Assembly: GCA_017618275.1 (NCBI GenBank)
Contig: JAFZUS010000111.1
Span: forward strand, 103,573 to 163,837
DNA length: 60,265 bases
Direction: 5' to 3'
DNA from: Prevotella sp.
Lineage (GTDB): Bacteria; Bacteroidota; Bacteroidia; Bacteroidales; Bacteroidaceae
Below are positions 31,932-45,952 of the stretch, piece by piece (position 1 is the stretch's first letter; every line of letters starts with the position of its first letter). Made by a program: the position numbers and the translations under genes. A model generated the notes under the pieces. The model made no database searches. It was not told the origin of the DNA and was given only the letters and a program-made list of their open reading frames with translations.

Positions 31932-32026
31932 CAAAAAAATCTGTTTTTCAACACAAATTCCACAGATTTTTTACAAAAAAACCTATTAATCTGTGTTAAT
32001 AGATGGCTTCTGTGGCAGAAATTGTC

Positions 32027-32035
32027 TATCTTTGT
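32027..32035 (+). promoter_or_regulatory. -7 element of hflX
   Basis: TATCTTTGT ends only 9 bases before the chosen ATG, so the transcript would be almost leaderless. Divergent from nagB. Confidence 0.5.
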
Positions 32036-32044
32036 AGCCAGAAT

Positions 32045-33400
32045 ATGAAAGAATTTGTAATATCGGAAGCCAAGGCCGAGACAGCGGTGCTGGTAGGACT
32101 CATCACCAAAGAGCAGGACGAGGCTAAGACCAAGGAATATCTCGACGAACTGGAGTTTCTGGCAGATACTGCCGGAGCCGTCACTGTGAGGCGTTTCACC
32201 CAGAAGGTGGGAGGCCCCAGTCAGACGACCTATGTGGGTAGTGGTAAACTGCAGGAAATCAAGGCATACATCAAGCAACAACAGGATGCCTACGACGAAT
32301 GGGTTGATTCGAGGAGTGAGGAGTGTGGAGTGTGGAGTGAGAATAGTTCAAACGCTGAGAGTAATCTCACTCCTCGCTCCTCACTCCACACTCCTCAACC
32401 AGTAGGAATGGTGATCTTCGATGATGAACTCTCTGCCAAGCAGATACGCAATATCGAGAAGGAACTGCAAGTGAAGATCCTCGACCGTACTTCTCTGATC
32501 TTGGATATCTTCGCCATGCGGGCACAGACGGCTGAGGCCAAGGCGCAGGTGGAGTTGGCGCAGCACCGTTATATGCTGCCTCGACTGCAACGGCTATGGA
32601 CGCACCTGGAGCGTCAGGGTGGCGGTTCTGGTTCTGGTGGCGGTAAGGGCTCCGTAGGTTTGCGTGGTCCTGGTGAGACGCAGTTGGAGATGGACCGTCG
32701 TATCATCCTCCAGCGCATCACCCTGCTGAAGCAGCGCCTGGCTGAGATCGACAAGCAGAAGACCACCCAGCGCAAGAACAGGGGTCGCTTGATCCGTGTG
32801 GCACTAGTGGGCTATACCAACGTGGGAAAGAGTACGATGATGAACCTACTGGCCAAGAGTGAGGTGTTTGCAGAGAACAAACTCTTCGCCACCCTCGATA
32901 CGACGGTGCGCAAGATGACCATCGACAACCTGCCCTTCCTCTTGGCTGATACCGTCGGTTTCATCCGTAAACTGCCCTCCGACCTGGTGGAGAGTTTCAA
33001 GAGTACCCTCGACGAGGTGCGAGAGGCTGACCTGTTGGTGCATGTGGTGGACATCTCACATCCCGACTTCGAGGATCAGATCCGTGTGGTGGAGAATACA
33101 CTGAAGGAATTGGGCTGTTCCGATACGCCCTCGATGATTGTGTTCAACAAGATCGATGCCTATACCTGGGTGCCGAAGGAGGACGACGACCTGACACCTG
33201 AGACCAAGGAGAATATCACCCTCGCCGACCTGGAGAAGACTTGGATGGCCCGCTCTTCTAATTACCTGGAGTGCTTGTTTATTTCTGCCCGAGAGAAGGA
33301 GAATATTGACGAACTGAGAGACGTGTTGTATAAGCGGGTGCGCGAACTGCACGTCCAGAAATATCCGTATAACGATTTTTTATATCAAGATTATGAGTAA
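32045..33400 (+). CDS. hflX: GTPase HflX (ribosome-associated) with a repeat-encoded insertion
   Basis: 451 residues from [10 protein letters not shown]. HflX binds the large ribosomal subunit and splits stalled ribosomes. The N-terminal domain has [10 protein letters not shown], then [28 protein letters not shown], the Gly-rich loop [22 protein letters not shown], and a GTPase domain with GYTNVGKST (near 258), DTVGF and NKID. Residues about 89-119 ([12 protein letters not shown]... to HTPQP) are not part of the usual family sequence. They are encoded by the palindromic element at 32311-32397, which also occurs in clpB. The gene overlaps DUF4954 by 8 bases. Confidence 0.95.
32311..32397. repeat. 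In-frame palindromic element inside hflX
   Basis: The left arm (32311-32342) is four 7-bp units (GGAGTGA, GGAGTGT, GGAGTGT, GGAGTGA) with GA at each end. The right arm (about 32365-32396) is its reverse complement at 28 of 32 positions. The spacer is about 22 bases. The left arm is identical over 32 bases to that at 43980-44011 in clpB. Only one frame on the coding strand avoids the TGA codons in GAGTGAG, and that is the frame used. Confidence 0.9.
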
Positions 33401-35246
33401 TTACAGAAACTTAACACAGACCGAGATTGATGTATTAGAGAACAATGTCTGCTGGGCAGAGGACTGGCAGCGAGTGATGGTGGCCGAAGGCTTCAAACCC
33501 TATAATTTCCATCGCGTCATCTTCTATGGCGATATCCGCTTGGGTGAATTCAACAAGCAGGTGGAGGTGAGTAAGGGCTTCTTCAAGCACTCCGGCATCA
33601 ATGATGCCACGCTCCGTAATGTCACTGTGGGCAACGACTGTCTGATTGAGAAAGTGGGTAACTATATTAACAACTATACCATCGGCAACGACTGTTATAT
33701 CTCCAATATTTGCACGTTGGAAACGACAGAGGACGCGACATTCGGCGAGGGTAGCATCATCTCCGTGCTGAACGAGATGGGCGATGGCAATGTGACCATC
33801 TTCCGCGAACTGAACAGTCAGTTGGCTTCCTTCATGGTGAAGCATAATAGCGACAAGGTGCTGAAGAAGACGCTCCAGCAGATGATTGAGGACGAGTTGC
33901 GCGTGTCGCGTCCAGATCGTGGCAATATCGGCAACAACGTGAAGATCATCAATGCCAAGGATATCACCAACACCATCATCAAGGGAGACTGTGAGATCAG
34001 TGGTACGTCAAGGCTCTCGGAGTGTACGGTGATGTCGTCGATGGATGCGCCGGTATTTATCGGAACGGGTGTGATCTGTGAGAACTCGATTATCTGTGAT
34101 GGTTGCAGCATCAATAACTCCGTGAAGATGCAGGACTGTTTCGTAGGTGAGGCCTGTCAGATTACCAACGGCTTCACGGCAGAGGCCAGCCTTTTCTTCG
34201 CCAACTCATTCATGGCCAACGGTGAGGCCTGCGCTGCCTTCTGCGGCCCGTTCTCTGCCTCACACCATAAGAGTTCATTGCTGATTGGTGGTGAGTTCTC
34301 ATTCTATAATGCCGGCTCGAACACCAACTTCTCGAACCATGCCTATAAGATGGGACCTCTGCACTATGGTACCCTTGAGCGTGGCACTAAGACCGCCTCC
34401 GGCGGCTATATCCTGATGCCTGCCACCATCGGTGCCTTCAGTGTCTGCTTTGGTAAACTGATGCACCATCCTGACACCCGTAACCTGCCGTTCTCTTATC
34501 TGGTGGCATACGGTGATGACTGTTATCTCGTGCCGGGTCGTAACATCACGACGGTGGGTCTCTATCGAGACATCAAGAAATGGCCGAAGCGTGACAAGCG
34601 CTCGAAGCAGTCGAGGAAGAGTATCATCAACTTCGACTGGCTGTCGCCGTTTACCGTTGGAGAGATCATGCAGGGCATCGAGATCCTGGAGTCCCTGCGT
34701 AAGGCCTCAGGCGACAATGTCTCTACTTATAATTTCCATGAGTACGTCATCAATGCTTCTTCCCTCCGTAAGGGACTGAAATACTACGATATCGCCCTGC
34801 GCATCTATATGGGTGCCGTGCTGAAACGCGCCCAGAAGGAAGGATTCTTCGGATGTCCTAAGAGCAATGTGGGCAAAGGCCGCTGGGTAGATCTCAGCGG
34901 ACTGCTCTTGCCAGAGAGCGAGGAACAGCGCATCGTCGATGATATCAAGAACGGTACCATCGAGAACGTCCAGCAGATACTCGACAGGTTTGTCGACATC
35001 AACGACCACTACAGTGACTACCGCTGGGCCTGGTCTTACCAGATGATACTCGACTACTATGGATTGGAAGAGATTACGCCAGCAGATGCAGAGCGGATCC
35101 GTGAGGACTATGTGAAGGCCCGTCGTGCCTGGATAGCCGAGATCCGTAAGGATGCTGAGAAGGAGTATCAGATGGGTGATGTGGAACAGGATGTCTATGA
35201 GGATTTCTTGAGTAAACTGGATCATGAGATAGATTATGAAAATTGA
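33393..35246 (+). CDS. DUF4954 family protein (left-handed beta-helix)
   Basis: 617 residues. The middle (about 70-340) has hexapeptide-like repeats ([61 protein letters not shown]), giving a left-handed beta-helix as in acyl- and nucleotidyltransferases. A helical C-terminal part of about 200 residues follows. The family (PF16314) is common in Bacteroidetes and related to sugar-nucleotide transferase folds; activity unknown. It starts inside the hflX stop region and overlaps the M16 gene leader, so the three are likely one transcript. Confidence 0.9.
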
Positions 35247-35250
35247 GGAT

Positions 35251-38148
35251 ATGAAAACAAGAGTATTATTGGTTTTGGGTGCTTTGCTGGTGCTCGGAAT
35301 GAGTTCCTGCAGCAAGTACAAGTACGAGAAAGTGGAGGGTGATCTGGCGCAGACGCGTATCTATACCCTTGAGAATGGACTGAAGGTGTATCTGAGTGTT
35401 AACAAGGATGAACCGCGTATTCAGACGTATATCGCCGTGCGTACGGGTTCGAAGAACGATCCCGCAGAGACCACCGGTCTGGCACATTATCTGGAGCACC
35501 TGATGTTTAAGGGCACCAATCAGTTTGGTACCAACAACGCAGAGGCTGAGGCGCCCCTGCTCGACGAGATTGAGAAGCGCTATGAGACTTATCGCAAACT
35601 GACCGATCCAGAGGCTCGTAAACAGGCCTATCATGAGATCGACTCGCTGAGTCAGGAGGCCGCAAAGTACTTCATTCCCAACGAGTATGACAAGTTGATG
35701 GCTGCCATCGGTGCGGAGGGAACGAATGCTTACACTTCGTTTGATGTGACCTGTTATACAGAGGACATCCCTGCCAACGAGGTGGAGAACTGGGCCAAGA
35801 TTCAGAGCGACCGCTTTAAGAATATGGTAATTCGTGGTTTCCACACGGAACTGGAGGCTGTGTATGAGGAGTATAACATCGGACTGTCGAGCGACATGAC
35901 CAAGTTGTACTATACAATGACTAAGATGCTGTTCCCCAATCATCCCTATGGCTTACAAACCGTAATCGGAACCCAGGATCACCTGAAGAACCCCTCGATT
36001 ACCAATATCAAGAACTATTTCAAGAAATGGTACGTGCCCAACAATGTGGCCATCTGTATGAGTGGCGACCTGGATCCGGACAAGACCATGGAAATACTCG
36101 AGAAGTACTTTGCCGACTGGCAGCCTGGCGATGATGTCAACCAGCCAGAGTTTGGCGAACTGACTGAACTCTCTCAGCCCAAGGATACCACCGTGATTGG
36201 TCAGGAGGCCGAGCAGATATGGATGGGATGGCGTGCCGATAAGGCCAACAGCCTTCAGGCAGACACGCTGGATCTGATGGAGAACGTGCTGAGCAACGGT
36301 AAGGCAGGACTCTTTGACCTCGACTTGGTGCAGACCATGAAGATGCAAAGAGCCAATGGTACCTGTGAGTTGATGCACGACCACGGTGCCTTCCTGCTGA
36401 TGGGTACTCCGAAGGAGGGACAGACACTGGAAGAGGTGAGAAGTCTGCTGCTGGAAGAGATCGACAAACTGAAGAAGGGCGACTTCCCTGATAATCTGTT
36501 GACCAGCATCATCAATAACATGAAGCGTCACCACTATGAGTTGTTGGAGAGCAACGAGGGTAGGGCTGATATGTTTGTCGATGCCTTTATCAACGAGGTG
36601 GACTGGCAACAGAAGGTGGGCCGCATTGACCGTATCTCGAAGATTACCAAGCAGGAGGTGGTCGACTTTGCCAACCGTTTCTTTACCGATGGCTATGTCA
36701 CGGTGTTTAAGAAGCAGGGCATCGACCCCAACCAGAAGAAGATAGAGAAGCCTGCCATCACGCCGATTCAGGCCAATCGCGACCAGGTGAGCGACTTCGT
36801 GAAAGCAATTCAGGAGGCAAAGGTGGATCCCATACAGCCTAAGTTCGTGGATTATCAGAAGGATATGACTACTGGCAAGACGGGTTACGACCAGCCCTTG
36901 TACTACGTGAAGAACAATACCAACGGACTCTTTGAACTGGTGTTCCACTACGACTTCGGACAGAGTGCTGACTGTCGTTATGACGTGGCCGCTGACTATT
37001 TCAAATATCTGGGTACTGAAAAACTCTCAGCAGCAGATCTGCGTCAGAAGTTCTATGAGTTGGCTTGCGACTGCTACGTGAGTGTGGGTGAAGAGGATAT
37101 TAACGTCGGTCTCTCTGGTCTCAGCGAGAATATGGAATCCGCACTGGCACTCTTGCAGGATGTGATGCAGAATGCGAAGGTGGATAAGGAAGCCTACAAC
37201 GAGATGGTGGGCGTGACACTGAAGCGCAGGAACGATGTCAAGAAGGATCAGCGTAATTACTTTGAATTCCTGTACAGATATGCCACGCAGGGTGAGCGTA
37301 ATGCCTATCGTGACATGATGCCAGAGCAGGAACTGAAGGATACCGATCCGCAGGTGTTCGTCGACCTGCTGAAGGGCCTTGGACAGTATCAGCACACGGT
37401 GCTCTATTACGGTCCGCTGGATGAGGCGAAGGTGTCGGAATCGGTCAACAAACTGTTTGCAAAGGATCTGAAAGCCGGGCCTGAAAACAATCCTTATCTG
37501 AATCAGTTGGCTAACGAGAACGAGATCTGGATTGCACCATACGAGGCCAAGAACATCTACATGCGTATGTATCATAATGAGGGTCGCGACTGGGATCCTG
37601 ACGAGTCGGGTGTACGTGTCCTGTTCAATGAGTACTTTGGTGGAGGCATGAACGGCATCGTGTTCCAGGAGATGCGTGAGACGCGCGGTTTGGCTTATAA
37701 TGCCTATGCCCGTTATAACCGTCCGACGGTGAAGGGACGTAAGGAGTCGTTTATGACGCATATCATCACCCAGAACGATAAGATGATGGATGCCGTAAAC
37801 CACTTCAATGAGATTATGAACCAGATGCCCGCCAGCGAGAATGCCTTCCAGATAGCGAAGGATGCGCTGACTAAGCAGATTGCAAGTGAGCGTATCAATA
37901 AGATGAATATCATTTGGAACTATATCGCTGCCAAGAAACTGGGTCTCGACTACGACCTGAATGCTAAGATCTATGAGCAGTTGCCACAGATAACGTTGCA
38001 GAACGTGGTTGATTTTGCCAAGAATCAGATTGCCAACAAGCCCTATCGTTACATTATCCTTGGCGATGAGAAGGAACTCGATATGAAGGCTTTAGGCCAG
38101 ATTGGTCCCATTCGCCGTCTTACAACGCAAGAGGTGTTTGGGTATTAA
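35251..38148 (+). CDS. M16 family zinc peptidase lipoprotein (pitrilysin/insulinase type)
   Basis: 965 residues from MKTRVLLVLG; an in-frame ATG at 35236 is possible. The signal peptide ends in MSSC, a lipobox-like site. The inverted zinc motif HYLEH is at residues 79-83, and the third ligand Glu is expected in ELEAVYEEYN. A second M16 pair of domains from about residue 500 carries the usual inactive half with ETRGLAYNAYARY. Such proteins degrade peptides in the periplasm. It follows DUF4954 with only 4 bases between stop and start. Confidence 0.93.
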   Translation: MKTRVLLVLGALLVLGMSSCSKYKYEKVEGDLAQTRIYTLENGLKVYLSVNKDEPRIQTYIAVRTGSKNDPAETTGLAHYLEHLMFKGTNQFGTNNAEAEAPLLDEIEKRYETYRKLTDPEARKQAYHEIDSLSQEAAKYFIPNEYDKLMAAIGAEGTNAYTSFDVTCYTEDIPANEVENWAKIQSDRFKNMVIRGFHTELEAVYEEYNIGLSSDMTKLYYTMTKMLFPNHPYGLQTVIGTQDHLKNPSITNIKNYFKKWYVPNNVAICMSGDLDPDKTMEILEKYFADWQPGDDVNQPEFGELTELSQPKDTTVIGQEAEQIWMGWRADKANSLQADTLDLMENVLSNGKAGLFDLDLVQTMKMQRANGTCELMHDHGAFLLMGTPKEGQTLEEVRSLLLEEIDKLKKGDFPDNLLTSIINNMKRHHYELLESNEGRADMFVDAFINEVDWQQKVGRIDRISKITKQEVVDFANRFFTDGYVTVFKKQGIDPNQKKIEKPAITPIQANRDQVSDFVKAIQEAKVDPIQPKFVDYQKDMTTGKTGYDQPLYYVKNNTNGLFELVFHYDFGQSADCRYDVAADYFKYLGTEKLSAADLRQKFYELACDCYVSVGEEDINVGLSGLSENMESALALLQDVMQNAKVDKEAYNEMVGVTLKRRNDVKKDQRNYFEFLYRYATQGERNAYRDMMPEQELKDTDPQVFVDLLKGLGQYQHTVLYYGPLDEAKVSESVNKLFAKDLKAGPENNPYLNQLANENEIWIAPYEAKNIYMRMYHNEGRDWDPDESGVRVLFNEYFGGGMNGIVFQEMRETRGLAYNAYARYNRPTVKGRKESFMTHIITQNDKMMDAVNHFNEIMNQMPASENAFQIAKDALTKQIASERINKMNIIWNYIAAKKLGLDYDLNAKIYEQLPQITLQNVVDFAKNQIANKPYRYIILGDEKELDMKALGQIGPIRRLTTQEVFGY

Positions 38149-38154
38149 TTATTT

Positions 38155-38268
38155 GCCCCCTAAGTTAGGGGGCTACAGGGGTCTGAACAGGCGCAGACTT
38201 CTGAAGTCAAACATATTAATGGTCTGATGAACGCTTGTTCAGACCCCCATCCCCCTAACTTAGGGGGC
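38155..38268. repeat. Long inverted repeat between the M16 and fumarase genes
   Basis: The arms at about 38155-38193 and 38232-38268 are near-complementary. Each contains the inner palindrome CCCCCTAAGTTAGGGGG or its equivalent and a GGGGTCTGAACA segment. The centre (38194-38231) is unrelated. Nothing suggests a transposase; it looks like a non-autonomous palindromic element. It fills nearly the whole intergenic gap. Confidence 0.8.
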
Positions 38269-38275
38269 TTAGAGT

Positions 38276-39925
38276 ATGGCTAATAATGTAGAATTCAAGT
38301 ATGCCCCGATGTTTCAGGTGGGCGAGGACAAGACGGAGTACCGCTTGTTGAGTAAGGAAGGCGTGACAACCGCCGAGTTTGAGGGAAAGACGATTGTGAA
38401 AGTCTCTAAGGAGGCACTGACACTGCTTGCCCAGCAGGCCTTCCACGATGTGGAGTTCATGCTGCGTCGTGAGCATAACCTGCAGGTGGCCAAGATACTG
38501 ACCGATCCTGAGGCCAGTGAGAATGATAAGTACGTGGCCCTGCAGTTCCTGCGTAATGCCGAGGTGGCTGCACGTGGTATCCTGCCGTTCTGTCAGGATA
38601 CGGGTACGGCTATCATCCATGGCGAGAAAGGTCAGCAGATATGGACGGGCTTCGAGGACGAAGAGGCGCTGAGCCTGGGTGTGTTCAATACCTTTACCCA
38701 GGACAACCTGCGCTACTCGCAGAACGCTCCTTTGAACATGTACGACGAGGTGAACACCCGTTGTAACCTGCCTGCCCAGATTGATATCGAGGCCACAGAG
38801 GGTGCAGAGTATAAGTTCGTGATGGTGGCCAAGGGTGGTGGCTCTGCCAACAAGACCTACTTCTATCCCATGACCAAGGCTACCATCCAGAACGAGGGTA
38901 CGCTCATCCCATTCCTGGTTGAGAAGATGAAGTCGCTGGGTACGGCTGCTTGTCCGCCTTATCACATCGCATTCGTGATTGGTGGTACATCGGCAGAGAA
39001 GAACCTGTTGACGGTGAAACTTGCTTCCATCAAGTATTATGATGGCCTGCCTACAACAGGCGATGAGACAGGTCGTGCCTTCCGCGATGTAGACCTCGAG
39101 GAGAAACTGCTGAAGGAGGCTCATAAGATTGGTTTGGGTGCCCAGTTCGGTGGTAAGTACCTGGCTCACGACATCCGTGTCGTCCGTCTGCCTCGTCATG
39201 GTGCCTCTTGTCCGATTGGCATGGGTGTATCTTGTTCTGCCGACAGAAATATCAAGGCAAAGATCAATGCCGACGGTATCTGGTTGGAGAAGATGGACTC
39301 GAATCCCTCTGAGTTGATTCCTGCTGAGTATGCGAAGGCAGGTGAGGGTGCGAACACCATCACCATCGACCTGAACGAGGGTATCGATGCCGTTCGCAAG
39401 GAACTGTCGAAGTATCCTGTCTCTACCCGTGTCAACCTGAAGGGAACCATCATCGTGGCCCGCGATATCGCCCACGCTAAGTTGAAGGCTCGTCTGGATG
39501 CTGGTGAGGGACTGCCCGACTACTTCAAGAAGTATCCTGTGCTCTATGCAGGTCCTGCCAAGACGCCAGAGGGCTATCCCTGTGGTTCGATGGGGCCCAC
39601 GACAGCCAACCGTATGGATCCCTATGTGGATGAGTTCCAGTCCTTGGGTGCTTCACTCGTGATGATTGCCAAGGGTAATCGTAGCGATGTGGTGACAGAG
39701 GCTTGTAAGAAGTATGGTGGCTTCTATCTGGGCAGTATCGGTGGTGTGGCCGCTGTGCTCTCTCAGAGCAGCATCAAGAGTATCGAGTGCGTGGAGTATC
39801 CCGAGTTGGGTATGGAGGCTGTCTGGAAGATTGATGTCGAAGACTTCCCTGCATTCATCCTCGTGGATGACAAGGGCAACGACTTCTTCAAGACCCTGAA
39901 GCCCTGGACGCCGTGCGCTCGCTAA
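38276..39925 (+). CDS. fumA: Class I fumarate hydratase (4Fe-4S)
   Basis: 549 residues. Interconverts fumarate and malate in the reductive succinate pathway. PFCQDTGTA (Cys106), TAACPPYH (Cys226) and [17 protein letters not shown] (Cys312, Cys320) supply the iron-sulphur cluster ligands expected for the oxygen-sensitive class I enzyme. The C-terminal beta domain ([31 protein letters not shown]) is fused, as in FumA/FumB. Preceded by a long palindromic element. Its end overlaps the proposed GTG start of the next gene by 13 bases. Confidence 0.96.
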
Positions 39926-41415
39926 TCGGAATGTTGATGATGTGTCTTTGTCTGACTGCCAACGCAGCCAGACAAAAGACGCGTCGTCTGCCCGATGGCA
40001 CTGTCGTTCATACGACGCGCAGTGCCACTGTTCGTCGTTCCCTGCCAAGACCTCGTACGTCATGGGACTCTCAGAAGACCTATCGTGTGCCAGTGCTACT
40101 GATGTCGTTTGCCGACTGTGACTTCAGTGCAGAGCATGATCAGGCATTCTACAACGACCTGTTTAATAAGCCGGGCTTCAACCTCGGAGCAGGCCTGGGG
40201 TGTGTGGCCGACTATTTCCGTGACCAGTCGCGAGGGCAGTTCAATGTGGTGTTCGATGTGGTGGGTCCCATCAAACTGACATCGAATCAGAAGTCCAATA
40301 GTACCCCAAACTATGGCGTGAGTCAGATAAAGGAAACCATCAAGATAGCGAATGAGCAGTTGGACTATACTGACTATGACTGGGATGGTTCTGGTAAGGT
40401 GGAATCGGTCATTATCGTCTATGCCGGCTATGGTGGCAATGAGGATATGAAAATGACCGATGGTTGTATCTGGCCGAATACGGATAATCTCAATATGACA
40501 CTCGATGGGGTGGCTGTGAAAGGCTATTCTGCCAGTCCTGAGTTGTGGTCTGATGAGACCTCCTGTGGCATTGGCACCATCTGTCACGAGTTCTGTCATG
40601 TGTTGGGACTCCCCGATCTATATCCTACCTCTGGCAGCGAGTTTTCTGTCGTCGACGAGTGGGATCTGATGGATGGTGGCAACTATGCCGATGATGGCTG
40701 GTGTCCGCCTAATCTGTCCATTCAAGAACGGGCGTATCTGGGGTGGCAGGATCCTGAGGACCTGACGGAGGCAAGGACGATAACGGACATGCCTTCCTTC
40801 GACAGAAGCGGGAAAGCCTATCGGATTGTCAACGAAGCCCATCCCTCAGAGTATTATCTGTTGGAGAACCGTCAGTGGGAAGGCTGGGATTTCATGCTGC
40901 CGAATCATGGTCTGCTGATTACCCATGTCGACTTCAGCGAAAGTGTCTGGCGAGGGAATACTGTCAATAGTGTTTCTTCCCACCACCGCTATGAGTATTT
41001 CCATGCCGATAATCTTGACTACAACTATTACGATGCTCTCTATCCAAGTAGTACGGATATTTATGGCTCTGACGGACGGAACCTGCGCCTACAGTACACC
41101 AGTTATCCCTATGTCGATGCCGAGGGGGGGAGCCATGATGCTTTGACAGACACGTCGATCCCTGCTGCCACCATCTTCAATCCGCGTGCTGATGGTGTAT
41201 CGCTTATGGGTAAGTCGATAACGGATATCTGTGAGGAAGACGGTCATGTCTCTTTCATCTTCACTGCGACATCCACCGGCATCGTATCCCTTTCTGTCGA
41301 TGCCTGTCCTGTGGCTTGGTACGACCTCCATGGACGTCAACTCCCAGGTCCTCCGACGAATGGCTTGTATATCATAAGATATAGTGACGGCTCCACCAGA
41401 AAAGTATTCCGATGA
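39913..41415 (+). CDS. M6-type secreted metalloprotease with sorting-like C-terminus
   Basis: 500 residues from a GTG overlapping the fumarase end; an ATG at 39931 is an alternative. Signal peptide [18 protein letters not shown]. The zinc motif [11 protein letters not shown] (about residue 225) and [10 protein letters not shown] match M6 immune-inhibitor-A-like proteases. The last 40 residues ([13 protein letters not shown]...GLYIIRY...STRKVFR) resemble the short T9SS type A sorting tail found in Prevotella. It is followed without a gap by a related protease (ATGA overlap), and the pair looks like a duplication that has since diverged. Confidence 0.92.
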
Positions 41416-42776
41416 AACGTATCCTCCTGTTCCTGTTTTCTGCACTCTGTCCGCTGTTCTTTTCGCAGGCACAGCCGATGAAACCCTGTGGTACTTCTGT
41501 ATTGGCCCGCAGGCATTCGACGGATGTTGGGGGCTCACAGGCACGACTCAGGAAATCGTCTCAACAGAATGCCTATCTGGGCGAGAAGCGTGGACTGATT
41601 ATTCTCGTGGATTTTCCAAACGCCAAGTTCCAGGACGAAAATCCGCATCAGACATGGTCTGATATTGCCAATCTCTGTGGCTATGCTAAGAATAATGCTC
41701 CAGGCAGTGTCAGCGATTTCTTCTATGATCAGAGTTACGGCCAGTTCCGGCTTTTGTTCGATGTCGTTGGTCCTATTGAGGCTAAGCATGAGTATGCCTA
41801 TTATGGTCAGAACCAAGACTGGGGGCCTCCTACGGGGTGGTTCGACAAAAATGTAGGGGAACTGGTGGAGGAAGTCTGTGTGGCAGCCTCTGATCAGGTG
41901 CACTTTGCCGACTATGACTGGGATACCGACGGTAATGTGGAACAGGTGTTCCTGTTGTATGCCGGCCATGGGGAGAACGACTACTGGAGTAAAGATTCCA
42001 CTGTGATCTGGCCACACATGGCTTCTCTGATTGAAGACTGGGGCTATGAAGGTGGACTGGTGTTGCAGGACGTGCGTATCAATGCATACGCCTGTGCCAG
42101 TGAACTCAACCGCTTCAACAAGTTGGCTGGCATAGGAACATTCTGTCATGAGTTCAGCCATTGTCTCGGCCTGCCCGATCTATATGATACAGAGAAAGGA
42201 TACTCAGTCCTGGGGGATTACGACGTGATGGATCAGGGCAGTTATAGTGGCAGTGGTTGGTGTCCTGTGGGGTATTCCTCATACGAACGCTATGCCTGTG
42301 GCTGGCTGACACCCGTTGAGGTGACTGATCCCCATTCCCTCATTGGCTTCGACCCTGACGATGAAATGACAGGTGAGTTGAGCGCTCGTGCTGTCAAACC
42401 ACTGATCAGATATCCTGATGCTTGTATCTATCGCAGTTCTCCTGAGGCCAACGACTATTATCTGATAGAGTACCGTCTGAAGGAGTCTTGGGATAAATAC
42501 CTCCCAGAGGCAGGCCTGTTGGCGTGGCATATTGACTATGATGAACAGTCGTGGTATGAAAACACGGTCAACAACGACCCCGATCATCTGCGTGTGGATT
42601 ATATGAGTCCCGATGAAATCATGACTTCGGGTATCAAAGGAGTTCTGCGCGATGACAATCGTGAACCGTGTGCCGTCTATGATATTCAGGGTCATCGCCT
42701 TGTTGCGCTTCCTGTCACCCCGGGACTCTATATCCTCCGTTATCCTGACGGTTCCACAAAAAAGGTGTCCCGCTAA
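41412..42776 (+). CDS. M6-type secreted metalloprotease, second copy
   Basis: 454 residues with signal peptide [32 protein letters not shown] (about residue 246), VMDQGSYSGSGWCP and YYLIEYR follow the same order as the preceding gene. The end CAVYDIQGHRL...[17 protein letters not shown] is again a type A sorting-like tail. It starts in the stop of the first protease, so the two are translated from one message. It converges on clpB with a 4-base overlap of the coding ends. Confidence 0.92.
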   Translation: MKRILLFLFSALCPLFFSQAQPMKPCGTSVLARRHSTDVGGSQARLRKSSQQNAYLGEKRGLIILVDFPNAKFQDENPHQTWSDIANLCGYAKNNAPGSVSDFFYDQSYGQFRLLFDVVGPIEAKHEYAYYGQNQDWGPPTGWFDKNVGELVEEVCVAASDQVHFADYDWDTDGNVEQVFLLYAGHGENDYWSKDSTVIWPHMASLIEDWGYEGGLVLQDVRINAYACASELNRFNKLAGIGTFCHEFSHCLGLPDLYDTEKGYSVLGDYDVMDQGSYSGSGWCPVGYSSYERYACGWLTPVEVTDPHSLIGFDPDDEMTGELSARAVKPLIRYPDACIYRSSPEANDYYLIEYRLKESWDKYLPEAGLLAWHIDYDEQSWYENTVNNDPDHLRVDYMSPDEIMTSGIKGVLRDDNREPCAVYDIQGHRLVALPVTPGLYILRYPDGSTKKVSR

Positions 42777-45358
42777 TTGCGGAACACCAGTCCTTCTCCA
42801 AACTCGTCTATGATGATCGGCTTCGAACGATCCACCTTGTCGGCCAGGAGTTTCTTCGAGAGGTCGTTGAGCACGAACTGCTGGATGGCCCGTTTCACAG
42901 GTCGTGCGCCAAAGTCAGGATCATAGCCCTCTTCTGCCAGATAGGCGATGGCTTGAGGCGTACACTCCAGTCTGATGCCCTGCGGCTCCAGCATATCCGT
43001 CACCTTCTTCATCTGCAGGCGCACCACATCTGCTATCTGCTCCTTCGTCAGTGGCGTGAAGGTGATGATCTCGTCGATACGGTTCAAGAACTCAGGTCGC
43101 ATCGTGGCCTTCAGTTGCTCACGTGTGGCGTTCGAGGTCATGATGATGATGGTGTTCTTGAAGTTGGCCGTACGACCTTTGTTGTCTGTCAGTCGTCCGT
43201 CGTCCAGTACCTGCAACAGGATATTGAACACATCAGGATGGGCCTTTTCAATCTCGTCGAACAACACGACGGAGTAAGGCTTCCGTCTGACGGCCTCCGT
43301 CAGTTGACCACCCTCGTCGTAGCCCACATATCCTGGAGGCGCACCAATCAGACGCGACACACTGTATTTTTCCTGATATTCACTCATGTCGATACGCGTC
43401 ATCATCGTCTCGTCGTTGAAGAGGTAGTCGGCCAGCGTCTTGGCGAGTTCCGTCTTACCTACACCCGTGGTACCGAGGAAGATAAACGAGGCGATGGGGC
43501 GCTTGGGATCCTGAAGCCCAGCACGGCTACGGCGCACGGCATCAGAGACAGCCGTGATGGCCTCTTCCTGACCAATCACACGCTTGTGCAGTTCTTCCTC
43601 CAGATGCAGCAGTTTCTCGCGCTCACTCTGCATCATACGCGTCACAGGGATGCCCGTCCAACGCGATACCACCTCTGCGATATCGTCAGCCGTCACCTCC
43701 TCGCGCACCAGTGAGTCGCCATTCTGGGCATTTGCCAGTTGCGTCTGGATGTTCTTGATATCATCCTCGAGCACCTTCAGTTTCGAGTAGCGGATCTCAG
43801 CCACCTTGCCATAGTCGCCCTCGCGCTCAGCACGCTCTGCCTCGAGTTTCAGGTTCTCCATCTCTTGCTTGTCCTGCTGGATCTTGTTGATGAGTTGGCG
43901 CTCGCCCTCCCATTTGGCACGGAACTGGGTCTCCTGTTCCTTCAGTTCGGCGATGTCGCGGTCAAGTTGCTGGATTTTTGAGGAGTGAGGAGTGTGGAGT
44001 GTGGAGTGAGATGTGTCTGAGTCCGGAGTATTCTCACTCCTCACTCCTCCCTCCACACTCCTCGAATTCTCTCTAGAGATGGCCTCGCGCTCAATCTCAA
44101 GTTGAGCCAGGCGACGGGTGATTTCGTCGAGTTCCTCAGGCACGCTGTCACGCTCCATACGCAGTTTGGCGGCTGCCTCGTCCATGAGGTCGATGGCCTT
44201 GTCAGGCAGGAACCGTTCGCTGATATAACGCTCTGAGAGTTGCACGGCAGCGATACAGGCATCATCCTGGATACGCACCTTGTGGTGGTTCTCGTAACGC
44301 TCCTTCAAGCCACGCAGGATTGAGATAGCCGAGAGTTCATCGGGTTCGTCGACCATCACCGTCTGGAAACGACGTTCGAGGGCCTTGTCCTTCTCGAAGT
44401 ATTTTTGATATTCGTTGAGTGTGGTGGCACCGATGGCACGCAGTTCACCACGGGCCAGGGCAGGCTTCAGGATGTTGGCGGCATCCATCGCACCCTCACC
44501 GCCACCGGCACCCACGAGGGTGTGTATCTCGTCGATGAAGAGGATGATGCGCCCCTCTGCCTTCGTCACCTCGTTGATGACGCTTTTCAGACGCTCCTCA
44601 AATTCGCCTTTATACTTCGCACCTGCCACCAGCGCACCCATATCGAGCGAGTAGACCTGTTTGTCTTTCAGGTTCTCAGGCACGTCACCACGTACGATAC
44701 GACCTGCCAGTCCTTCCACGATGGCTGTCTTACCCGTACCCGGCTCACCAATCAAGATAGGGTTGTTCTTCGTACGACGCGAGAGGATCTGCAACAGTCG
44801 GCGTATCTCATCGTCACGACCTATCACAGGGTCGAGTTTACCCTGACGGGCAAGATCCACGAGGTTCTTGGCGTACTTCTCCAGACTCTGGTAGTTGTCG
44901 TCGGCACTCTGCGACTGCACCTTCTGTCCCTGGCGCAGTTCCTGAATGGCCTTCTGCATGTCCTTTTCCGTACAACCGGCATCCTTCATGATGCGTGAGG
45001 CCGTAGAGTTCACGTTGAGCAGGGCCAACAGGATCGGCTCCACACTGACGAACTCGTCGCCAGTCTTTTGGGCCGTCTCTTGTGCGCGCACCAGTACATT
45101 ATTACTTTCATTCGAGAGATATGGCTGTCCGCCCTGCACCTTCGCCAGGTGCTTGATCTCCTGCTCAACGAGCATCTCGATCTGCTGGGCATTCACGCCG
45201 AGTTTCTGGAAGATGAAGGTACATACGTCCTTCGCCTTCTCCAATACGCCCTTCAGTATATGTACAGGCTCTATCACCTGTTGACCGTTCAACTGTGCCG
45301 TATTCACAGCCTGTTGCACGGCCTCCTGGGCTTTGATGGTAAATTTGTCTAATGTCAT
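42773..45358 (-). CDS. clpB: Disaggregase ClpB with a repeat-encoded insertion in the M-domain
   Basis: 861 residues. An AAA+ hexamer that rescues aggregated proteins with DnaK. Clp N domain (1-150), NBD1 with [10 protein letters not shown] and LFIDEIH, a coiled-coil middle domain, NBD2 with GTTGVGKTE and [10 protein letters not shown], and a C-terminal domain. Residues about 432-461 (SRSVEGGV... to TPHSSK) interrupt the first helix region of the middle domain and are encoded by the palindromic element at 43980-44063. The ATG is preceded at 7 bases by AAAAGGAGG, an unusually strong ribosome site here, which pairs with an upstream CCTCCTTTT. Confidence 0.97.
43980..44063. repeat. In-frame palindromic element inside clpB
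   Basis: On the plus strand the first arm (43980-44011) is identical over 32 bases to the hflX copy. The second arm is at about 44032-44063, with a 20-base spacer. clpB is read on the minus strand, and the encoded peptide again runs SRS...SEN...HSTLHTP, so both genes use the same frame of the element despite opposite strands. Confidence 0.9.
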
Positions 45359-45496: not shown

Positions 45497-45925
45497 TTAC
45501 AACGCAAAGAAGTCAAAGAAGTACATGACTGCCGCCTGTCTCTGGTCGCTCATATTCTCCACCTTTCCTATAATTGAGCCACTCTTGCGGATGTCACCGT
45601 TCTTCTCTACTTTGCCTACGATTGAACCACTGATACGTACGTCGCCGTTTGACTCAATCTTGCCAATGATGCTACCACGCTTGCGAATGTCGCCGTTCTT
45701 TTCAATCTTACCCTCAATAGAACCGTTGACTCTGATGTCACCATTTGACTCAAAGCGTCCTTTTATAGAGCCATTGATACGCACGTCGCCGTTCGATTCA
45801 ATCTTACCGACAATCGAACCACCTTTCCGTAGTGTCATGTCACCTGCATTGGCATTCACGCAAACACCTATCAGCAGCACCAAGGCTACTAACAGTCTCA
45901 TCATAAAGTTTTTTCTCTGTCTCAT
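45497..45925 (-). CDS. Small exported repeat protein (beta-flower/solenoid-like)
   Basis: 142 residues from MRQRKNFMMRLL with signal peptide ending NANA; ATGs at 45940 and 45904 are also in frame. The mature part is seven near-repeats of about 14 residues, alternating GSIxGKIESNGDVR and GSIxGKVEKNGDIR. This regular pattern suggests a small beta-solenoid or a 5-fold beta-flower type seen in Bacteroidetes. It ends with a non-repetitive hydrophobic tail (VMYFFDFFAL). Own promoter at 45953-45984. Function unknown. Confidence 0.8.
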   Translation of the reverse strand: MRQRKNFMMRLLVALVLLIGVCVNANAGDMTLRKGGSIVGKIESNGDVRINGSIKGRFESNGDIRVNGSIEGKIEKNGDIRKRGSIIGKIESNGDVRISGSIVGKVEKNGDIRKSGSIIGKVENMSDQRQAAVMYFFDFFAL

Positions 45926-45952
45926 AATAATATACAACACAAGATTTCATCT

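Follow-up and report, generated by a model that had tools for sequence, protein, structure and literature searches.

Two palindromic elements in hflX and clpB

The DNA analyzed here, called the window throughout, is a 60,265-nucleotide (nt) stretch of a Prevotella sp. genome (GenBank assembly GCA_017618275.1, contig JAFZUS010000111.1, positions 103,573 to 163,837). It contains two copies of a short palindromic element made of tandem GGAGTGW units, one inside hflX and one inside clpB (Table 1). Elsewhere in the same genome such arrays enclose a gene for an IVP protein, the helical-bundle protein of IVP/S23 intervening sequences. The GGAGTGW element is apparently one member of a widespread but overlooked class of mobile elements, in which seven-base repeats surround this gene.

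Table 1. Host genes and parts of the two elements in the window (aa, amino acids; ORF, open reading frame)
Feature	Position	Strand	Remarks
hflX, GTPase gene, host of the first element	32003..33400	+	465 aa as ORF; Pfam GTP-bdg_N, GTP-bdg_M, MMR_HSR1
Short palindromic element in hflX	32308..32397	.	TTCGA edge, GGAGTGW array, short loop, inverted CACTCCW array; in frame
Left arm, hflX element, GGAGTGW units	32311..32345	+	First 32 bases identical to those at 43980
Right inverted arm, hflX element, diverged	32362..32396	-	Arm comparison
clpB, disaggregase gene, host of the second element	42773..45358	-	861 aa; Pfam AAA, AAA_lid_9, AAA_2, ClpB_D2-small
Short palindromic element in clpB	43977..44066	.	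Net +78 nt (26 aa) versus most relatives
Left arm, clpB element, GGAGTGW units	43977..44011	+	Arm comparison
Right inverted arm, clpB element	44032..44066	-	Arm comparison

A previous reading of the window from its sequence only had described two copies with an identical 32-base arm and a diverged inverted arm, and both were found where that reading had placed them. The shared stretch is GAGGAGTGAGGAGTGTGGAGTGTGGAGTGAGA, starting at 32311 in hflX and at 43980 in clpB, and in each element the two arms are 86% complementary over 35 nt. Folded as a single DNA strand, each element gave one long hairpin (z, −8.5 and −6.9 for hflX and clpB), and none of 200 shuffled sequences folded as well. With up to two mismatches, GGAGTGWGGAGTG occurs at 13 sites in the window, all within the two elements; 3.45 sites were expected, and none of 100 shuffles reached 13. 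These shuffle tests of pattern counts and folding rule out chance repeats as the source of the elements. A known RNA family is likewise rejected as their identity: at gathering scores Rfam had no match on the window, and in five other loci it matched only a tRNA.

Translation confirmed that the elements are read in frame although their host genes are on opposite strands, as 30 aa in HflX and 29 aa in ClpB. (For hflX, the ATG at 32045 is a likelier start than the ORF start at 32003.) The ClpB insert aligns to the ESDEAS/KKRL position of solved ClpB chains, which we take to be a turn of the middle domain. The host bases beside both elements also differ from those of relatives, so neither insert can be read as a clean addition to the sequence of a present-day relative.

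Copies across the genome and their reading frames

In the source genome (3.6 Mb in 213 contigs, 92% complete), matches to the GGAGTGW pattern grouped into nine elements. Without mismatches there were 14 and 19 matches, versus 1 and 0 for a reversed-pattern control; with mismatches this control was uninformative because the reversed repeat then matches the array itself. Seven of the nine elements are in frame inside genes, those for a double ABC ATPase, a FAD-dependent protein, RsmA, an LPG-synthase-type flippase, MetH, HflX, and ClpB. Of the remaining two, one lies 7 bp past the stop codon of pepD and the other, on contig C179, carries an IVP gene. All nine are in or beside protein genes, none within an rRNA gene. 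The eight short copies span 80 to 120 bp between outer units (element boundaries are approximate), and TYGW precedes the first unit at 16 of 18 ends. Draft genomes break at such arrays, and therefore copy counts are lower bounds.

The sequence-only reading had also held that the other frames are mostly closed. Across the eight short copies stop codons close 34 of 48 frames, which agrees, and hflX has a second open frame on the same strand. In a given frame the unit reads as the stop codon TGA or the sense codon TGT, depending on whether W is A or T; together with the palindromic structure, this choice tends to leave one frame open, in many cases on both strands. The copies inside genes all keep one frame open through the hairpin. 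MetH has a second in-frame element in a later linker (L035:9982-10137); it belongs to another repeat family, AATTAGN, and its variant units leave the frame open.

The same host genes in relatives

That relatives lack the segment proved right for ClpB and for the nearest relatives of HflX, and needs qualification for HflX at large. None of 29 ClpB relatives carries the element. Between fixed flanks, clpB has 84 nt in the source genome versus 6 to 9 nt in 26 of 28 relatives; the other two have 39 nt (L173) and 30 nt (L174), both without arms, and the 29th relative (L178) aligns without the element. For HflX, 80 relative loci were kept, mostly from Prevotella or Prevotellaceae and many from the rumen, of which three truncated loci were left out. 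The two nearest relatives (L090 and L091) have no insert. The loop is variable, however, and by eye 6 of the 77 loci compared have other heptamer-like inserts (GGAATGW in L096 and L103; others in L097, L100, L102, and L140).

Queries made of joined flanks gave similar results for two more hosts. Among the matches listed, no element-sized insert was present in at least 25 of 29 relatives for RsmA and at least 21 of 29 for the flippase. The linkers of the ABC ATPase and MetH vary among relatives and are less informative. Some relatives have other repeats in the same loops: in RsmA, units of GGAASGA type in genome G022 (L303) and of CCCCCTA type in G027 (L304), and in the flippase of G025 (L309) worn CATTCC units. 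Repeated insertion into the HflX, RsmA, and flippase loops and sequence drift of old inserts would both produce this picture.

GGAGTGW arrays were found in 3 of 59 relatives: as single arrays at ORF ends in G007, as single arrays in G014, and at ten sites in G018. The ten G018 sites are all within open frames of 214 to 678 codons and encode the same kind of peptide. Seven were tested against Pfam and all matched (SpoU, RsmB/F, a Mfd-type protein, DUF6056, a fused C26/M19 peptidase ORF, QueA, and XseA). Several sites are open on both strands, which leaves the coding strand unsettled at the three sites outside the Pfam test. A comparison by exact 13-mers found a single arm at six or seven of the ten sites; thus, copies decay. 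At clpB, G018 (95% identity) is without the element.

An IVP gene between the same arrays

The full copy on C179 (G000:C179:51680-52239) lies at the 3′ end of a flippase gene and has a gene for a four-helix-bundle protein between the arms that form the short copies. The protein matches PF05635, the family of 23S rRNA intervening-sequence proteins (E = 4.7e-29), TIGR02436 (E = 3.4e-28), and XCC0516 (2GSC). The short copies in the window have no IVP gene. Six IVP genes in the source genome scored above the Pfam cut-off. Five have inverted arrays, each with a unit of its own (GGAGTGW, TGCAYAA, GGTGAGAA type, TAGAGTG, and AATTAGN), and the sixth, located where a contig ends, is a fragment. Two weaker IVP-like proteins, with frames of 231 to 243 aa, are encoded near 16181 of contig C79 (L043) and near 37320 of contig C64 (L042); the gene on C79 adjoins 10-bp repeats with CCTAGG, possibly a further repeat type.

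We compared the 300 nt on either side of IVP genes for inverted matches, taking pairs of flanks about 1.2 kb away as controls. Inverted flanks were present at 71 of 86 IVP loci versus 1 of 83 usable control pairs. The positive loci comprised 5 of 5 from the source genome, 18 of 29 and 35 of 39 in two sets of relatives, and 13 of 13 plasmid loci (Cyanobacteriota, Gemmatimonadota, and Azospirillum). The relatives' loci were picked by rank of Pfam score, as the best 69 of about 139 listed rows over the cut-off. Two loci at contig ends (L038 and L219) and the weak matches on C64 and C79 were left out. The end of the C179 match (L036) was set 230 nt short in the flank, size, and tree analyses, and its arrays were still found; the L061 and L066 matches were roughly placed in the flank test and exact in the analysis of size and position.

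The association also held in loci outside this set. With the same threshold, 13 of 20 held-out, lower-ranked IVP loci had inverted flanks versus 0 of 17 controls. For the best-scoring IVP gene of each of 30 genomes from other orders or classes of the phylum, the numbers were 12 of 30 versus 0 of 30, and many of these loci had visible, if worn, repeats. Seven of 126 genes of the source genome passed the threshold: three of them are IVP genes, and the remaining four, from 123 non-IVP genes, lie between two elements. In IVP flanks with clear tandem repeats the period was 7 (64 flanks), 8 (26), 9 (4), 10 (4), or 12 (2). Beside the IVP genes at L214, L062, and L234 the arrays are very long (tandem score above 80, period 7 or 12), a hint of growth by slippage. 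A phage collection gave no IVP match at 1e-5.

Arrays and IVP gene move as one unit

Two Nostoc plasmids, L272 and L267, share an operon. At one junction L272 has an IVP element where L267 reads GGTTCTAGGTTATGC; at the next junction L267 has an element with another unit, and L272 reads GAGGTAATGGGATTTG. Close genomes differ in their insertion sites. The reciprocal empty sites are without arrays, and therefore the arrays and the IVP gene move together. At one of the two sites the element replaces 2 bases, and at the other ATG is repeated.

The 71 elements with inverted flanks have a median size of 482 bp. Fifty-seven of them begin between −45 and +60 nt from the stop codon of a codirectional ORF of at least 110 codons, a count made without a matched control. 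At loci with a clear neighbor, the neighboring gene was codirectional in 54 of 66 cases on the left and 60 of 67 on the right. The position next to stop codons and the shared direction would fit a transcript intermediate, but also selection for being expressed as part of the host operon.

Loci of like repeat period group together on the IVP tree: 64 labeled loci required 14 changes, the mean of shuffled labels was 21.8, and none of 200 shuffles was as low. The tree has few columns, and near relatives favor clustering. The nearest IVP to the C179 protein, at L068 (67% over 105 aa), is flanked by GGAATGA/GGAACGA arrays with the same TCGA edge as the GGAGTGW copies and a GATTAC inner edge. Units of similar type make up inserts that relatives have in HflX, RsmA, and the flippase.

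Short palindromes as probable derivatives of IVP-bearing copies

Three repeat families of the source genome each have one IVP-bearing copy plus several palindromes without the gene. Besides GGAGTGW these are, in the stretches examined, TGCAYAA, with one IVP copy and five short pairs of 112 to 138 bp, and AATTAGN, with one IVP copy and three short pairs of 128 to 162 bp. The inner edges link long and short copies. Beside TGCAYAA arrays, AATTGGCTGYGCA is found in the long copy and two of the five short pairs; beside AATTAGN arrays, TGATTAC is found in the long copy and two of the three short pairs. False starts within the array make it hard to judge which TGCAYAA arrays have genes around them. 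Contigs C83, C118, and C128 (L243, L248, and L249) end in or near TGCAYAA arrays, where the assembly seems to break. Eight of nine AATTAGN arrays are outside ORFs, and three perfect units close all frames. We nevertheless rejected the idea that read-through of AATTAGN arrays is never possible, because the metH copy has variant units and is open.

Taken with the C179 copy, these pairings make it likely that the palindromes in hflX and clpB are short, nonautonomous copies of an IVP-encoding mobile element.

A proposed element, and what weighs against it

The full element, mostly about 400 to 560 bp, would consist of an array of 7- or 8-bp tandem repeats, the IVP gene, and the same array inverted. 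Copies would insert at many sites, and a copy within a gene would survive if it is open and in frame in a tolerant loop. The IVP protein may bind the folded arms, whether in RNA or in single-stranded DNA derived from the host operon, and may help copy the element elsewhere. More broadly, IVP genes across bacterial phyla would be the sole genes of a distinct class of transposable elements, moved by IVP and host functions without a known transposase. The class would be marked by inverted arrays of 7 or 8 bp whose sequence drifts and whose period is kept, and it would insert at stop codons and inside protein genes. The heptamers of Nostoc and Xanthomonas, the intervening sequences of rRNA, and the in-frame palindromes would then be its faces. 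We regard this wider proposal as evenly balanced between true and false.

Several observations weigh against these proposals. We infer the role of IVP in mobility from association, and the element has no room for a gene encoding a transposase, nuclease, or reverse transcriptase. A few host bases differ or are replaced at the clpB, hflX, and Nostoc sites, and no target-site duplication was established. No inner motif common to all IVP element families was found (some sublineages share GA[A/T]TA[C/G]), and the inner-edge match between long and short GGAGTGW copies is AGAATA plus a few bases, only about 10 bases in all. The inverted-flank test failed at 15 of the 86 IVP loci and at 18 of the 30 best-scoring IVP loci from other orders or classes. 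Clear tandem repeats on one or both flanks, present at 64 of 86 IVP loci and 16 of 86 control pairs, were less discriminating. G018, despite its ten GGAGTGW sites, has no IVP match at E ≤ 0.001; the gene is perhaps lost or unassembled. Finally, of the 25 relatives with at least three IVP matches, 16 have no match to RVT_1, 7 none to Y1_Tnp, and 7 none to either.

The last result bears equally on what we consider the strongest competing explanation, a possible one to which we give the lesser weight: that a known enzyme acts in trans to move the element, either the reverse transcriptase of a retroelement or a Y1 transposase of the RAYT/IS200 type acting on the hairpin. PF05635 is described as resembling Avd of diversity-generating retroelements, which works with a reverse transcriptase (PMC10053308), and hairpin-forming REPINs are tied to RAYTs (PMC3116915). 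Codirection with the upstream gene at many loci would fit a transcript intermediate. IVP counts in the 59 relatives, however, track neither RVT_1 (Spearman coefficient, −0.12; P = 0.36) nor Y1_Tnp (0.21; P = 0.11), which rules out either enzyme as an obligate partner, with the reservation that several of these assemblies are incomplete and that family models may miss distant enzymes. The source genome itself has one Y1_Tnp match (E = 6.5e-13). At the 13 plasmid IVP loci, unlike in the Avd systems, no reverse transcriptase was annotated within 1.5 kb (two loci were without annotation, and no search was made for template and variable repeats).

The sequence-only reading had likened the elements to Rickettsia palindromic elements (RPEs), and if that likeness were taken as the whole account, the GGAGTGW copies would be an orphan palindrome family unrelated to IVP, one IVP gene having been captured on C179. 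Their behavior in genes equals that described for RPEs (PMC10969869), and the absence of a detected IVP gene in G018 would be expected. The capture of a single gene does not explain why five of the six source-genome IVP genes over the cut-off have arrays, each of a different unit, why the design recurs at most IVP loci in several phyla, or why the TGCAYAA and AATTAGN families show the same pairing of long and short copies. The likeness stands for the dispersed, in-frame behavior, and neither outcome that the sequence-only reading had named as refuting it was seen; RPEs as the closest source are not supported, since the same ends here flank an IVP gene. An orphan family seems unlikely to us.

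Less probable still, the in-frame peptides might be domesticated linkers, useful to their host proteins and kept for that function. Open frames in seven of the nine copies here and in all ten G018 sites exceed a naive expectation, and several relatives also have inserts in the loops of HflX, RsmA, and the flippase. The hosts are unrelated, however, the loops vary in length, close relatives lack the inserts, and some copies are decayed or single-armed.

We give slightly less credence to the view that IVP genes insert into arrays that are themselves nothing more than slippage repeats or hot spots for insertion. Heptameric repeats are reported to be overrepresented in some bacteria and to lie near stop codons (PMC4692102), three IVP loci have the very long arrays noted above, and tandem repeats occur in some control flanks too. 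Against this, empty sites have no array (the Nostoc junctions, and RsmA and ClpB of relatives), the arms on either side of the gene match each other in inverted orientation, and the repeat period tracks the IVP tree.

A single conversion event that copied the segment between hflX and clpB, which the identity of the 32-base arm might suggest, is refuted by the seven further elements in the genome, and the loops of the two copies differ.

Relation to known repeats

RPEs are short palindromic repeats found in frame in unrelated protein genes, where they encode a conserved peptide (PMC10969869). The GGAGTGW element is likewise a short multicopy palindrome (80 to 120 bp, versus about 100 to 150 bp for RPEs) with one preferred frame in unrelated genes. 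It differs in its 7-bp tandem units, its link to IVP, and its Prevotella-type host; the likeness drawn here is one of behavior.

The intervening sequence of 23S rRNA is described as a selfish element of about 430 nt with inverted-repeat ends around an IVP ORF; a role of the ORF in mobility is given there as theory, and that account calls functionality and origin unclear (PMC4990558). The long copy on C179 likewise encodes an IVP/S23 protein and has inverted-repeat ends that form a stem. In contrast to the rRNA elements, those found here are in or next to protein genes, their ends are heptamer arrays, and short copies without IVP occur. If the proposed class is real, it would offer a setting for the spread of IVP/S23 intervening sequences.

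It would also give a setting to the heptameric repeats of cyanobacteria and other bacteria. For Xanthomonas, a survey reports heptamers (GGGAATC) that often form convergent pairs, 70 to 75 in each genome, close to stop codons and between aligned ORFs, and it describes heptameric repeats as generally not associated with mobile elements (PMC4692102). TAACTGA heptamers are reported from Beggiatoaceae, Cyanobacteria, and Bacteroidetes, with no evident mechanism in that account (PMC4679880). The arrays described here resemble the heptamers of Xanthomonas, Nostoc, and Calothrix, but they are the ends of an IVP element. We predict that the GGGAATC pairs of Xanthomonas belong to the IVP class. The heptamers of the Nostoc and Calothrix type are presumably those called STRR. 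In a literature search that was thin on subscription journals and preprints, we found no publication joining IVP genes with heptamer arrays.

The short copies are also like miniature inverted-repeat transposable elements and REPINs, being dispersed, nonautonomous inverted repeats with no transposase gene and related to a longer, gene-bearing copy. Here, however, the longer copy carries IVP and not a transposase, the GGAGTGW copies are translated when inside a gene, and the IVP-rich relatives with no Y1_Tnp match set the element apart from the REPIN/RAYT system.

IVP genes have been noted in cas loci (PMC3936711 and PMC10910872), and under the proposed scheme those in cas operons would be passengers. 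At 3 of the 13 plasmid loci, all cyanobacterial (L261, L265, and L268), the IVP gene is among cas genes, which may explain the listing of IVP as CRISPR-linked. The insertions in ClpB, HflX, RsmA, and MetH would also form a natural in-frame series that shows where core proteins tolerate foreign peptides.

Other features of the window

Two adjacent, similar ORFs on the plus strand (39913 to 41415 and 41412 to 42776) lie beside the 3′ end of clpB; from the style of their motifs we take them to be metallopeptidase-like. On the minus strand, positions 45497 to 45940 hold a 147-aa ORF built of repeats of GSIxGKIExNGDIR type.

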